This document shows positions 945 through 6,015 of a DNA stretch of 34,782 bases, piece by piece. Below the pieces are notes generated by a model. That model searched no databases and was not told the origin of the DNA. It saw nothing but the letters and a program-made list of their open reading frames with translations. The translations under genes were made by a program, and so were the position numbers. The stretch lies in contig JAGXGB010000040.1 in the NCBI GenBank assembly GCA_024636955.1, positions 1 to 34,782 on the forward strand, in the 5' to 3' direction. Position 1 is the first letter of the stretch; the number at the start of each line of letters is the position of its first letter. The stretch is from Bacteroidales bacterium (lineage in GTDB: Bacteria; Bacteroidota; Bacteroidia; Bacteroidales; Lentimicrobiaceae).

Positions 945-1283
945 TTAAACTAAGTCCTTTTTACCGATATTTTCAATTTTTAGTTTAAATACTTTTTTCC
1001 TCTCGTCAGATATCTCTATTTCATCTACAAATGTTTGGTCTTTAGTAACTTTGTTATTGAACGAAACATAAAGCCTGTCGAGATTGAGTTCAGGATGAAT
1101 ATCTGCAAATTGTCGGGCTAATTTCATAAGTTCCTTGGCCCTTGATTCAAGTGCGCTGGTATCACATAACCATTGGTGGAAATTCCAATACCCTTCTTCG
1201 TTGATGTTTCCATCGGGTGCTACAATTATTCCTTTTTTGCTGAAGGCTTCCAGCTGCTGATTCAACGATATTTTGAATGACAT
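945..1283 (-). CDS. hypothetical protein, 112 aa
   Basis: Not recognised. The frame can be extended to a TTG at 1310, but the ATG at 1283 (MSFKISLNQQ) is preferred because it gives a normal start and a sensible N-terminus. The product is soluble and mixed alpha/beta: a segment around GIIVAPDGNINEEGYWNFHQW, a helix rich in Ala, Lys and Leu, and a charged beta-like C-terminus (VDEIEISDERKKVFKLKIENIGKK). There is no signal peptide or membrane segment. It stands alone between the convergent WYL gene and the ergothioneine operon on its own strand, about 110 nt downstream of the methyltransferase gene, so it could be co-transcribed with it. No function is proposed. Confidence 0.6.
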   Translation of the reverse strand: MSFKISLNQQLEAFSKKGIIVAPDGNINEEGYWNFHQWLCDTSALESRAKELMKLARQFADIHPELNLDRLYVSFNNKVTKDQTFVDEIEISDERKKVFKLKIENIGKKDLV

Positions 1284-1392
1284 GGCAAGTGGCTTTGTTG
1301 TATTAGACAATACAAAAAAACACGTAGAATGTTCTGGCTGTTTCTCGTTTTTTTAGAGAATTTAAAATTTTAGGTTGAGTTGAAATAAAAAT

Positions 1393-2361
1393 TTATTCCT
1401 TGATCCACAATGAATTAGCAAAATAGCGCCGATTGTCAAAAAAGTGTCCATTAATAGCGAATCCATATTTGTTAGCAAGCTGTTCAATGCTCTCAATATC
1501 AAATTTCCGGGACACTTCCATGAATATCGGTTCCCATTGACTAAACTTAAATCGGCTATCTAAAGCTTTAATGTGCACTTCATGTTCGCTGTTTGAAACC
1601 AAAAAGCTTTTAACCTCTCCTGTATGTGGATCATAATTAGTATAATGCTCAAACCTGTGAATTTCAAAATTTGCATCAAGTTCACGGTTGATACGAGTTA
1701 AGAGGTTCAAGTTGAATTGTGCAGTGCGGCCATGTGGATCTTCATAGGCTGGCATGATCACAGCAGGAGACTTTTTGAGATCGAAGCCAATGAGGACTTT
1801 GTCGCCTTTATTTGCAATAGATAATAGTTGCATCATGAACTTATGTAATTCATCATCTGGGAAATTGCCGATATTAGAGCCAAGAAACAATATGGCCTTG
1901 CGAATACCAGCATGACCATTGAGTTGTTTAATGATACTGAAATAATCTCCTGTTCGTGGTTCCACATTAAGAGTTGGCATTTCCTGCTTTAAACTTTTTA
2001 CCAACAACTCATTCGCTTTTGAGCTAATGTCAACCGGTATATAGGTAAATTTTATTTGCGAAGCGAGAAGTTCTCTTAGTAATACCTTGGTTTTAAGTCC
2101 GTCGCCCGATCCTAATTCTATGATTTCAAGATTGTGAGGATTGCCATAATTAAACGCATTTGCCAGAGCTTCAGCATGAATATTAAAAATCTCTTGCTCA
2201 CATTGGGTCAGATAGTATTCCGGCATCTGCATTATTTGTTGGAAAATCCTGCTCCCCGCATCATCGTAAAAATATTTGGGAAGCAAGAATTTTGGCCTTG
2301 AATTTAGCCCTCTGAGCGTATCGGTGGCAATATTGGAAATTATATCAGTTTGTTTTATCAT
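1393..2361 (-). CDS. egtD: L-histidine N-alpha-methyltransferase (EgtD/EanA family)
   Basis: SAM-dependent enzyme expected to trimethylate histidine to hercynine, the first step of ergothioneine synthesis. The family signature is clear: PKYFYDDAGSRIF near residue 28, PEYYLTQ near 47, the SAM-binding loop ELGSGDGLKT (82-91), FLGSNIGNF (159-167), AYEDP with FNLNLLTRIN (205-225), and FMEVSRKF (280-287). Asn166, Tyr206, Glu282 and Ser284 fall where, from memory, histidine-contacting residues of the mycobacterial enzyme are numbered. The length of 322 aa is normal. It starts 2 nt after the stop of the rhodanese gene, so the two form an operon. No EgtB-type oxygen-dependent sulfoxide synthase is in the window; the partner suggests the anaerobic route (EanA). 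Confidence 0.92.
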   Translation of the reverse strand: MIKQTDIISNIATDTLRGLNSRPKFLLPKYFYDDAGSRIFQQIMQMPEYYLTQCEQEIFNIHAEALANAFNYGNPHNLEIIELGSGDGLKTKVLLRELLASQIKFTYIPVDISSKANELLVKSLKQEMPTLNVEPRTGDYFSIIKQLNGHAGIRKAILFLGSNIGNFPDDELHKFMMQLLSIANKGDKVLIGFDLKKSPAVIMPAYEDPHGRTAQFNLNLLTRINRELDANFEIHRFEHYTNYDPHTGEVKSFLVSNSEHEVHIKALDSRFKFSQWEPIFMEVSRKFDIESIEQLANKYGFAINGHFFDNRRYFANSLWIKE

Positions 2362-2363
2362 AA

Positions 2364-3641
2364 CTATTTTGATTTGCCAGTTTCATATGGATTATTAGGA
2401 TCATTACTCCATTCAAACCAGCCGCCGTCAAATACAGCAATATCGGGCCAACCCATGAGCCAGGCATTGTAGAATGCTTCACTGCCACGCCATCCTGTAC
2501 CACAATAGAAAGCCAGACGTTTATCAGGTGTTATTCCTGACTTAAGCCATATTTCTTCAATTTCATGATATTCACGCGTAGTATGATCATTATTCCTGTA
2601 ATTTTCCATGTGATATGCATCGGTTCCACAGTCAGCAAATACAGCACCCGGTATTCTTCCTTTCTTCTCAATGTAGTTGTATCCACTAACTTCGCCTAAA
2701 AATTCAGGAAGACTTCTAACGCAAACGAGTTCTGCCTTTTCGGATAAAAGCAGTCTTTTTGCTTCCGTAATATCTACTGCAAGACCAGGCTTAACAGGAA
2801 TGGTTGCCCCGAAGTTAGTCGCTGGTTTTCGTGGCACGTCTTCGGTATAGATTTCGTAACCAGCATTTTGCCAGGCGAGGAATCCACCATTAAGCACTCT
2901 TACATCCTTTACACCAGCATAAAGCATTATGAAAGCACAGCGGATAGCGGCGATATCACCGGCTGCACTGCCCGGAAAATCGTCAGCATTATCAGGAAAC
3001 ATAAATTTACCATAAAGTACAATAGTGCTTTCGGAAGTAATGCCATGTTGCAACAAAGCATGCTCAAGTTCTTCAGGCGAGCGGCGATTCCATGTTTCAG
3101 GGGCTTCAAGAGCAAGGGTATCAATATCAATTGCTCCTGATATATGACCACTAAGATATGCATCACGATTACGGTAATGCGCGTGGCAGATAATGATATC
3201 ACTAAGTGGCGATTCAGAAACCTCAAGTCCTTGAATAGCCGCATTCAGCCAGTTAGGATATACCAGGTTTTTATATCTGGGAAGGAATTCCATGGGGTAA
3301 GAGTCATTGGCCGACCATTCGGTAAGAAATAGTGGATATGTGCTGATATTGTCATATCCCGCTCTTATAAAGTAATCACCTAAAATGTTCAGATCATTAT
3401 CAGGATACCCATACAGTATGATTTTATGGTCAGGTAGAATGTTCTTTGACCTGACAATCTCAATCCAATCAATATAAGTAGTCCATTCATGAGGAAGGCT
3501 TTTTGCCCCTTTAATGTGCCCGCCCCTTTTTTCTTCTTTTAATTTCCAGCCGTTATAGGCCTCAACAGGGCGTACATCTATGACCATGACATCTGGATTA
3601 GCCAGAGACTGGTATAATTCATGCGTGGTTATTTGCTTCAT
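2364..3641 (-). CDS. eanB: EanB-like rhodanese, hercynine sulfurtransferase (anaerobic ergothioneine synthesis)
   Basis: 425-aa protein made of three rhodanese-like domains (about 1-115, 130-265 and 285-418). The first two have no cysteine at the catalytic-loop position (YGYPDND near 77; YGKFMFPDN near 210). The third has the loop CGTGWR with Cys380. In Chlorobium EanB, the enzyme that inserts sulfur directly into hercynine, the catalytic loop is, from memory, the same and its cysteine is Cys412 with Tyr353 as proton donor. The same 59-residue spacing here lands on Tyr321 (SGYNYIEKKG). It lies 2 nt before the EgtD/EanA gene, which makes the assignment much stronger than a generic thiosulfate sulfurtransferase call. 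It is probably cytoplasmic, as no signal peptide is seen. Sulfur donor and activity are inferred. Confidence 0.82.
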   Translation of the reverse strand: MKQITTHELYQSLANPDVMVIDVRPVEAYNGWKLKEEKRGGHIKGAKSLPHEWTTYIDWIEIVRSKNILPDHKIILYGYPDNDLNILGDYFIRAGYDNISTYPLFLTEWSANDSYPMEFLPRYKNLVYPNWLNAAIQGLEVSESPLSDIIICHAHYRNRDAYLSGHISGAIDIDTLALEAPETWNRRSPEELEHALLQHGITSESTIVLYGKFMFPDNADDFPGSAAGDIAAIRCAFIMLYAGVKDVRVLNGGFLAWQNAGYEIYTEDVPRKPATNFGATIPVKPGLAVDITEAKRLLLSEKAELVCVRSLPEFLGEVSGYNYIEKKGRIPGAVFADCGTDAYHMENYRNNDHTTREYHEIEEIWLKSGITPDKRLAFYCGTGWRGSEAFYNAWLMGWPDIAVFDGGWFEWSNDPNNPYETGKSK

Positions 3642-3643
3642 CT

Positions 3644-3681
3644 ATACTCCATTTAAGTTTTAAACTTAATATATGGAGTAT
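3644..3681. promoter_or_regulatory. long inverted repeat directly before eanB
   Basis: The left arm reads ATACTCCAT then TTAAGTTT. The centre is a single T at 3661. The right arm reads AAACTTAA, three extra bases TAT, then ATGGAGTAT. All 17 positions of each arm match apart from the 3-nt bulge. It ends 2 nt from the eanB start codon, so it is either an operator overlapping the leader or an RNA hairpin that would bury the ribosome-binding region. There is no T-run to suggest a terminator. Confidence 0.6.
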
Positions 3682-3746
3682 TGTTTAAGCAGCGTTTACA
3701 ATAAAGGAATTTGAGTAGTTGTAGAGGATAAGATGAGATAGGATAT

Positions 3747-4583: not shown

Positions 4584-5885
4584 ATGGTAAAAAAGCAAAA
4601 AACTCCTGTTGAAAAGCGAATAACTCTTGTTGAAAAGCGAATAACTCTTGTTGAAAAACAAAAAACTCCTGTTGGTAGTAAGCTGTCGACATTACTTAAA
4701 AAGGGAAGCAAGCAACAATTTTATACAAGTGTAAAGCCCATGCTGGCATCATTGGTTGATAAACCTTTCGACGCTGACGGTTGGGTTTATGAAGTTAAAT
4801 GGGATGGTTATCGTGCTGTTGCTTTTCTAAAAGATGATCAGATAGAATTAAAATCAAGAAATAATAAATCACTCAATGTGAAATTCTACTCTATAAGTAA
4901 AGCGCTGGCTGAATGGAGTGTAAATGCAATAGTTGATGGAGAAATTGTTGCGGTAGATGAAGATGGTTCAGCAAATTTCAGTGCCTTGCAGAATTGGAGG
5001 AGTGAGGCTGATGGAGAATTGGTGTATTATTTATTTGATATACTTTGGTATGATGGTATCGATGTAAAAGGGCTTCCCTTAACAGAAAGAAAAGAAATAC
5101 TTAACAGCATTATTCCTGAGGACTCCATTATCAGGGTAAGTAATGACTTTCAAACATCGGGTATTGAATTCCTTGAAGTAGCTAGAAAAATGGGTTTGGA
5201 AGGAATTATGGCTAAAAGGGACAGCAGCATATATCAACCCGGAAACAGAAATAGAGATTGGCTTAAGATAAAGGCTAATTTTAGGCAGGAGGTTGTAATA
5301 GGTGGTTACACCTTAAATGAAGGAAGTCGTAAACCCTTTAGTTCGTTGCTGGTTGGGGTATTTGAAAAAGGTAAGTATATATACACAGGTCATATTGGTA
5401 CAGGATTTAGTACTAAGACCCAACGCGATATGTTGGAGCAGTTTAATCCCCTTATCATTGATAAATCACCTTTTGATGAAAAGCCAGATGTAAACAAGCC
5501 AAGTCGGTTTCGCCCTAATCCCCCTAACGCAACTGCAACATGGCTTAAGCCTGAACTTGTTTGCGAGGTTAGTTTTACAGAGATGACTAATGATGGGGTA
5601 ATGCGACATCCTTCGTTTAAAGGAATGAGGAGCGATAAATTGGCTAAAGAAGTAGTTCTTGAAACCGAAACCGAGACAACTGAAGTTTTAAAAAATGAAT
5701 CGGAGGTAATCACTGCCGATAACAAAGCGTCCGGCAAAAGTAAAAAACAGTCAAAACAGGAAATTCATAAAGAACTGTCAGAACAGGAAATTCATAAAGA
5801 ACTGTCAGAACAAACAGAGGGGAAAGAGTTACCTGTTAAAATTTTAAAGCCCAGAGGAAAGCTAAAAAAAAAGAACCCTGCTTAA
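4584..5885 (+). CDS. ligD: ATP-dependent DNA ligase, LigD ligase domain only
   Basis: 433 aa. The nucleotidyltransferase core runs about 45-240: motif I EVKWDGYR with nucleophile Lys72, SRNNKSLN near 91, DGEIVAVD (118-125), motif III YYLFDILWYDG (148-158), motif IV EGIMAKR (206-212) and motif V WLKIK (226-230). The OB fold follows (241-355) with FTEMTNDGVMRHPSFKGMR. This is the ligase module of LigD, the bacterial end-joining enzyme. Usual LigD in this phylum also has phosphoesterase and polymerase modules. Here the N-terminus is a short lysine-rich repeat with no phosphoesterase domain, and the C-terminus ends in charged repeats right after a run of nine A bases, with a polymerase-domain remnant in another frame behind it. 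The ligase module itself looks intact. No Ku gene is in the window. Confidence 0.88.
   Translation: MVKKQKTPVEKRITLVEKRITLVEKQKTPVGSKLSTLLKKGSKQQFYTSVKPMLASLVDKPFDADGWVYEVKWDGYRAVAFLKDDQIELKSRNNKSLNVKFYSISKALAEWSVNAIVDGEIVAVDEDGSANFSALQNWRSEADGELVYYLFDILWYDGIDVKGLPLTERKEILNSIIPEDSIIRVSNDFQTSGIEFLEVARKMGLEGIMAKRDSSIYQPGNRNRDWLKIKANFRQEVVIGGYTLNEGSRKPFSSLLVGVFEKGKYIYTGHIGTGFSTKTQRDMLEQFNPLIIDKSPFDEKPDVNKPSRFRPNPPNATATWLKPELVCEVSFTEMTNDGVMRHPSFKGMRSDKLAKEVVLETETETTEVLKNESEVITADNKASGKSKKQSKQEIHKELSEQEIHKELSEQTEGKELPVKILKPRGKLKKKNPA
4590..4673 (+). repeat. 21-bp tandem repeat, four units, inside ligD
   Basis: Four consecutive 21-bp units code for seven-residue repeats of the type VEKRITL / VEKQKTP at the very start of the ligase. 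Units 2 and 3 are identical (GAAAAGCGAATAACTCTTGTT in parts); units 1 and 4 are variants of each other. Length change in whole units keeps the frame. Confidence 0.9.
5757..5810 (+). repeat. 27-bp perfect tandem duplication inside ligD
   Basis: Two identical adjacent 27-bp units (5757-5783 and 5784-5810) code for two copies of QEIHKELSE in the hydrophilic C-terminal tail of the ligase. Perfect identity indicates a recent duplication. Confidence 0.92.
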
Positions 5886-6015
5886 TCCAAAAGATAAAAC
5901 CCAGGTTAGGAATGTAGGTGCGTTTGAGCTTAAATTTACAAACCTCCATAAAATGTATTGGCCCGATGAAAAGGTAACCAAACGTGACTTGATAAACTAC
6001 TACTATAGGGGTTAG
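5872..6015 (+). pseudogene. ligD: remnant of LigD polymerase domain, frameshifted and truncated
   Basis: In the frame one base off from the ligase gene, translation after the A9 run (5864-5872) gives LLNPKDKTQVRNVGAF, ELKFTNLHKMYWPDEK, VTKRDLINYYYRG and then a stop (TAG at 6013-6015). LTNLxKxYWPxExxTKxDLIxYY is the hallmark start of the LigD primase/polymerase module. The rest of that roughly 300-residue domain is missing. A length change in the A9 tract would join it to the ligase frame. So an ancestral ligase-polymerase fusion was cut short by a deletion and then frameshifted, or these events happened in the other order. What follows it is a decayed copy of the rmuC 3' end. Confidence 0.78.

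Follow-up and report, generated by a model that had tools for sequence, protein, structure and literature searches.

A predicted oxygen-independent ergothioneine operon in a Bacteroidales genome pairs an EanB-type rhodanese with a methyltransferase lineage apart from Chlorobium EanA

Two adjacent genes in a Bacteroidales genome are predicted from sequence comparison, with a probability of roughly 0.85, to form an operon for O2-independent ergothioneine synthesis. They lie in the window, the whole 34,782-base stretch of DNA analysed, which is a complete contig of genome G000 (assembly of 3.22 Mb, 93.2% complete, 0.19% contamination); as the assembly is 93% complete, gene absences in G000 are provisional. 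The methyltransferase would convert histidine to hercynine by trimethylation, Cys380 of the EanB-type rhodanese would carry a persulfide, and Tyr321 would protonate and deprotonate the imidazole. Passing the sulfur onto hercynine C2 would yield ergothioneine in a single step that requires neither EgtB nor O2. For EanB, the available parts of PMC9103826 and PMC10903977 describe the transfer of polysulfide sulfur via a Cys412 persulfide to hercynine C2; in this reaction Tyr353 serves as both acid and base, the substrate is oriented by Thr414, and Arg417 stabilises an intermediate. We infer the same reaction for the window protein, with ergothioneine as product; by analogy, polysulfide would be the direct sulfur donor. 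The rhodanese is of a known type, and the gene pair belongs to a known pathway, as an ordinary and well-supported case. Since its methyltransferase is not orthologous to Chlorobium EanA, the operon appears to serve the same function with a first enzyme recruited from another lineage. Of the initial annotation, which had read the pair as an EanB-EanA operon, the EanB type and the lack of a detectable EgtB in G000 stood, but the argument from loop and spacing and the orthology with Chlorobium EanA did not.

Both ORFs start with ATG and were recovered at exactly the positions, 2 nt apart, where a rhodanese and an EgtD-type methyltransferase had been reported (Table 1). The rhodanese stop codon TAG is followed by TT and then by the ATG of the methyltransferase gene. 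This spacing fits translational coupling, and the two genes are probably co-transcribed. The pair is flanked on one side by a 121-aa ORF (945-1310, minus strand) without Pfam or NCBIfam match and a WYL-domain protein (92-886), and on the other by a DoxX protein and a ligase of the NHEJ (LigD) type, all of them unrelated in kind to the gene pair.

Table 1. Features of the predicted ergothioneine operon (window positions)
Feature	Position	Strand	Evidence
Methyltransferase gene: EgtD-family histidine N-alpha-methyltransferase, 322 aa, lineage apart from Chlorobium EanA	1393..2361	-	Pfam, TIGR03438, tree and AU test, pocket residues
2-nt gap separating both genes	2362..2363	-	ORF coordinates
eanB-type gene, 425 aa, three rhodanese domains, probable ergothioneine synthase (hercynine sulfurtransferase)	2364..3641	-	638 bits, 266/422 identities to 6ktv
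Cys380 codon, equivalent of catalytic Cys412 of C. limicola EanB	2502..2504	-	alignment; Cys in 97/97 relatives
Tyr321 codon, equivalent of Tyr353 of C. limicola EanB (Tyr also in YnjE)	2679..2681	-	alignment
Imperfect 22-nt inverted repeat over the eanB start	3634..3691		repeat search and hairpin folding

Pfam places three rhodanese stretches in the 425-aa protein. Among its five cysteines (152, 235, 307, 338 and 380), Cys380 is the sole one at a rhodanese active-loop position as judged by eye, in agreement with the earlier description of a three-domain rhodanese with a catalytic cysteine in its last domain only, a feature common to YnjE. Cys380 is part of a CGTGWR motif, and Tyr321 lies 59 residues N-terminal of it. 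The best solved matches (630-639 bits) were eight entries listed as ‘Sulfurtransferase’, 6ktv among them, which we take to be Chlorobium limicola EanB and its variants; the EanB match reached 638 bits (E = 5e-191), followed lower down by YnjE with 287 bits and two-domain rhodaneses with at most 65 bits. Identity amounted to 63.0% (266/422) with C. limicola EanB and 39.6% (160/404) with YnjE. The published EanB numbering corresponds to the 6ktv SEQRES numbering minus 3 (415 becomes Cys412), and on this basis Tyr353, Cys412, Thr414 and Arg417 are equivalent to Tyr321, Cys380, Thr382 and Arg385 in the window protein. The four equivalents are kept in all 97 EanB-type relatives; they are necessary for membership in the EanB type, not sufficient.

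In a tree of 21 rows (11 EanBs, YnjE and nine two-domain sulfurtransferases of relatives), the EanB rows and YnjE were split from the nine two-domain enzymes with 100/100 support. The comparison with EanB and ordinary sulfurtransferases suggested by the initial annotation thus produced no grouping with the latter. Placement of the window protein inside the EanB family is preferred, not forced, since constraining the ten other EanBs together without it gave p-AU 0.074. Taken by score, identity, tree position and the family-specific columns considered below, the window rhodanese is EanB-type at the sequence level.

EanB and EgtD-family genes go together in the genomes compared. Among 149 genomes, G000 included, EanB, either full-length or cut by a contig end, was present in 21 at 475 bits or more, the next match scoring 70 bits. 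An EgtD-family gene was found in 27 of the 149, namely in 20 of the 21 genomes with EanB versus 7 of the 128 without it (one-sided Fisher p 5.6e-18, kinship uncorrected). The single EanB genome devoid of an EgtD-family match, G049, has its EanB cut by a contig end, and two of the seven EgtD-positive, EanB-negative genomes have weak matches (G034, 95 bits; G116, 26 bits). G026, G068, G110, G119 and G143 carry an EgtD-family gene with neither EanB nor an EgtB over cut-off. Public loci were taken as the best 80 of 332 relatives from a pattern scan. In 54 of these best 80, an EgtD-family gene scoring 90 bits or more against the window protein was located within 4 kb of EanB or fused to it; a 55th locus, L007, has a 73-bit match cut by a contig end. 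When the 25 remaining EanB genomes were searched whole, 22 had an EgtD-family gene elsewhere, so that 77 of these best 80 contain one somewhere and in three none was found. Fusions of EanB and methyltransferase occur as single 749-aa ORFs in L011 (5992-8241) and L034 (5983-8232), and a third, in L082 (5989-8019), is cut by a contig end. At several loci a pyridine nucleotide-disulfide reductase gene is inserted between EanB and methyltransferase (L020:3497-4873, L048:2765-4126, L051:7308-8678; the L048 copy was typed), possibly a candidate disulfide recycler or supplier of reduced sulfur.

The 322-aa methyltransferase matched Methyltransf_33, the EgtD family, with 316 bits over residues 12-319 (Pfam cut-off 23), and the EgtD equivalog model TIGR03438 with 283.4 bits, just under the cut-off of 290.9. 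Since C. limicola itself was not recognised among the 61 genomes drawn, the closest of these, G209 (locus L169), served as Chlorobium-type reference; its EanB shares 92% identity with that of C. limicola, and the methyltransferase gene follows 55 nt downstream. The window methyltransferase showed 28.6% identity over 315 residues to that of L169, 32.2% over 276 residues to Mycobacterium smegmatis EgtD, and 46% to methyltransferases adjoining EgtB (L128, L155); its lineage can elsewhere be found next to EgtB. In a tree of 102 methyltransferases the Chlorobium type falls into the 36-row clade I (100/99) and the window protein elsewhere, in a 37-row clade (97/97). The deepest split of this tree has 32 EanB-linked rows on one side and 33 on the other; forcing these 65 rows into one clade gave p-AU 0.0004, and a single clade of the window methyltransferase and clade I was rejected with p-AU 0.002. 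Identification of METHYLTRANSFERASE as Chlorobium EanA is ruled out by the identity of ~29% to L169, the placement in the other clade and this rejection, and the initial annotation has to be corrected in this respect. One functional test of a Bacteroidales methyltransferase is described in the available portion of PMC11767532, for a protein reported to be 49% alike to C. limicola EanA; because of this likeness we regard the tested protein as Chlorobium type. In the partial texts returned by our literature search, apparently no functional test of a window-type methyltransferase beside EanB was found.

The features by which EanB was originally recognised leave room for a different reading of the pair, in which the rhodanese would work like YnjE or as a general sulfurtransferase, delivering sulfur for example to a carrier, with a methyltransferase as chance neighbour. 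E. coli YnjE (2wlr, 3ipo) has the same three-domain build, the CGTGWR motif, Tyr326 59 residues before Cys385, and the same loop Thr and Arg. Loop and spacing are present in the window protein as had been claimed, but they are not diagnostic of EanB because YnjE has both; likewise, Tyr321, Thr382, Arg385 and CGTGWR do not prove a hercynine substrate, since all of them recur in YnjE. In the 21-row tree, moreover, YnjE joins next to a divergent EanB-like row, but its own branch is very long and its placement therefore unsure. What separates the two types is the remainder of the protein. When the window protein, YnjE and C. limicola EanB were aligned with 97 other EanB-type sequences, 121 columns proved at least 97% invariant. 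YnjE departs from the family at 35 of these 121, and the window protein matches the family in 34 of the 35, deviating at Ala231; in total it is off consensus at four invariant columns (168, 207, 231 and 424). The 34 shared columns include an insertion in the middle domain that is missing from YnjE. The EanB assignment therefore holds up at the level of residues, in the four catalytic as well as in the family-specific positions. Together with an identity to C. limicola EanB 23 percentage points above that to YnjE and the occurrence of EgtD-family genes in nearly all EanB genomes, this renders the YnjE-like reading quite improbable.

The product may also be questioned from the side of the methyltransferase, which could act on another amino acid or trimethylate incompletely, the rhodanese then thiolating the result to a related sulfur compound. 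The score under the TIGR03438 cut-off is in line with this, as is one change in the substrate pocket, for which we relied on an assumed list of the residues forming the M. smegmatis EgtD pocket and on 4uy6 and 4pim, which presumably derive from that organism. Eight of the nine positions checked are kept (Y39, F47, Y56, G161, N166, Y206, E282 and S284), and at position 252, an EgtD numbering which we take to be one above that of the solved chain, the window enzyme has Ser in place of Met. This position marks the clade split: Met occupies it in 35 of 36 clade-I rows and Ser in 35 of 37 rows of the window clade, the remaining rows having gaps and one Asn. Ser252 is, however, also found in methyltransferases adjoining EgtB (L128, L131, L155, L163), and for this reason it is compatible with an ergothioneine pathway. 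Within the same family, the window enzyme differs from M. smegmatis EgtD in its overall identity, in Ser252 and in having EanB instead of EgtB as partner. For some EanB-like enzymes, sulfur transfer to other heterocycles is suggested as a possibility in the available part of PMC9516567. Given the eight unchanged pocket positions and the EgtB-adjacent enzymes with Ser252, a related compound is a most improbable product, and ergothioneine is the preferred one.

The histories of sulfurtransferase and methyltransferase are separate, which implies that EanB, not EanA, is the component diagnostic of the pathway. A tree of 99 EanB rows was built by a careful method whose bootstrap was not fully settled. 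Labels of unlinked partner genes, taken from the genome searches, count a single gene for each genome, also for G070 and G141, which have a second; 93 rows were labelled I or II, four were unlabelled, and two with partners outside both classes were set apart. Among the 93 labelled rows the methyltransferase class changes 13 times, at least 6 changes being forced by well-supported EanB branches alone, and EanBs with clade-I partners as one clade obtained p-AU 1.3e-5. By these sequence data, EanB has switched between methyltransferase lineages repeatedly, and the switch is supported at the class level. We considered, and rejected, that the window and two relatives of the same genus, G007 and G002, had exchanged partners locally: the three methyltransferases form one clade (94/97) and the three EanBs are not united in the best tree, but a tree uniting them is allowed (p-AU 0.401). 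L029 is labelled Patescibacteria, yet both its EanB and its methyltransferase cluster tightly with their counterparts in the Bacteroidales loci L028 and L043, probably a binning error.

The initial annotation proposed a search for EgtB elsewhere in the genome, and none was found in the 93%-complete assembly of G000. Its two PF03781 proteins were typed as GldK (593 bits, cut-off 350) and GldJ (491 bits, cut-off 458) and are ruled out as EgtB, OvoA or SenA; the EgtB model TIGR03440 gave no match over cut-off in G000. At E <=0.001 this model has some match in 145 of the 149 genomes, over cut-off only in G031 and G147, both of which contain EanB. In 25 EanB genomes searched at E <=1e-60, six had EgtB over cut-off and one a partial match below it. 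EanB and EgtB are hence not mutually exclusive, as eight searched genomes have both, and their joint presence implies that some EanB homologues may serve another purpose. An EgtD-family gene stands beside EgtB in six of these eight, and the other two, G160 and G167, lack an EgtD-family gene altogether.

The label ‘anaerobic’ was retained in part. The chemistry needs no O2, yet a gene for cytochrome c oxidase is present in the host. G000 has three PF00115 proteins, which were examined by their matched stretch only. The first is a cytochrome c oxidase subunit I, with 608 bits to TIGR02891 over a stretch of 444 of 547 aa against a whole-protein cut-off of 671, and with cytochrome c oxidases as best solved matches (412 bits). 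The other two match nitric oxide reductases, which we assume to be quinol-type, with 539 and 305 bits. The oxidase suggests that the host probably respires O2 and is probably no strict anaerobe. Furthermore, all eight Salinimicrobium genomes examined contain EanB and no EgtB match at E <=1e-60; these organisms are aerobes. ‘Anaerobic’ suits the reaction, for whose chemistry the label should best be kept, and not so much the organism. Predicted oxygen-free ergothioneine synthesis in Bacteroidota is thereby extended to a genome with cytochrome c oxidase, an argument against taking EanB to mark strict anaerobes.

Apart from the methyltransferase gene, the commonest neighbour of EanB in the 90 loci compared encodes a DUF427 protein (PF04248, ~93 aa). 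In 27 of 80 loci (best 80 of 332) it lies no more than 1.5 kb from EanB or the methyltransferase gene, and loci where it lies beside one of the two include L006, L012, L017, L044, L047, L049, L073, L144-L148, L150, L151 and L179. Among the 149 genomes, DUF427 was detected in 10, comprising 10 of the 21 EanB-positive versus none of the 128 EanB-negative ones (Fisher p 3e-10, kinship uncorrected); one of these ten matches, in G134, is weak and partial. It adjoins the methyltransferase gene in seven of the eight Salinimicrobium genomes and lies near EgtB in L155, L160 and L177. In G000, searched at 93% completeness, DUF427 is absent and consequently cannot be essential. The family is widespread elsewhere, being present in 271 of 72,556 plasmid records; no annotated ergothioneine gene adjoined DUF427 in two plasmid regions inspected, or the EanB-like gene in a third. 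The only solved relative found is the uncharacterised protein 3djm, and our literature search returned no paper mentioning both DUF427 and ergothioneine. The association makes DUF427 a concrete candidate for an accessory gene. It is conceivable, although we would put it forward as a tentative and somewhat doubtful generalisation, that ergothioneine synthesis in Bacteroidota is modular, with EanB re-paired with non-orthologous EgtD lineages (fusions included), in O2-respiring hosts too, and with DUF427 as an unrecognised accessory component.

A fusion of permease and binding protein, together with a second gene product of 223-249 aa that looks by eye like an ATPase, is encoded near EanB in L014 (10453-12742), L018, L022, L048 and L073. 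The L073 fusion had its best solved match (296 bits) in 8dp6, listed as an osmoprotection protein, which we take to be the ergothioneine-binding EgtU. An EgtU-like ABC transporter is accordingly located near 5 of 80 EanB loci (best 80 of 332), with L014 belonging to the window's genus and only the L073 protein typed. At E <=1e-60 it was found in two of the 149 genomes and was absent from G000; as EanB is present in only one of the two, the transporter was discarded as general support.

The closest characterised system is that of C. limicola, where EanB is paired with an EgtD-family EanA (Clim_1148 and Clim_1149 in the available parts of PMC11767532 and PMC9103826). The window resembles it in EanB, catalytic residues and an EgtD-family partner, but differs in the lineage of this partner and in a host with cytochrome c oxidase. 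Another O2-independent route of hercynine sulfurization, by MES of Caldithrix abyssi, is described in the available part of PMC9516567; this enzyme is a fusion of metallopterin and desulfurase parts with more than 1,100 residues, and the two PF00384 proteins of G000, in open frames of 749 and 567 aa, are shorter. Our literature search returned no paper joining ergothioneine biosynthesis, rhodanese and Bacteroidetes.

An inverted repeat spans the eanB start (Table 1). The hairpin folded from minus-strand RNA of this segment pairs the GGAG preceding the start codon, with a stability of -19.7 kcal/mol (z -4.36) that was reached by 0 of 200 shuffles. The repeat might possibly act as an operator or in translational control. 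Its exact core pattern had no match in 196 of 198 loci, the two matching loci being those of the window's own genome, and we make no regulatory claim because the repeat is not common to other loci. Next to the gene pair, another frame stays open beyond the stop of the LigD-type ligase (ORF 4584-5885) for ~50 codons (5885-6010) before it ends; by eye it resembles the start of a LigD polymerase domain and is possibly the remnant of a longer gene.
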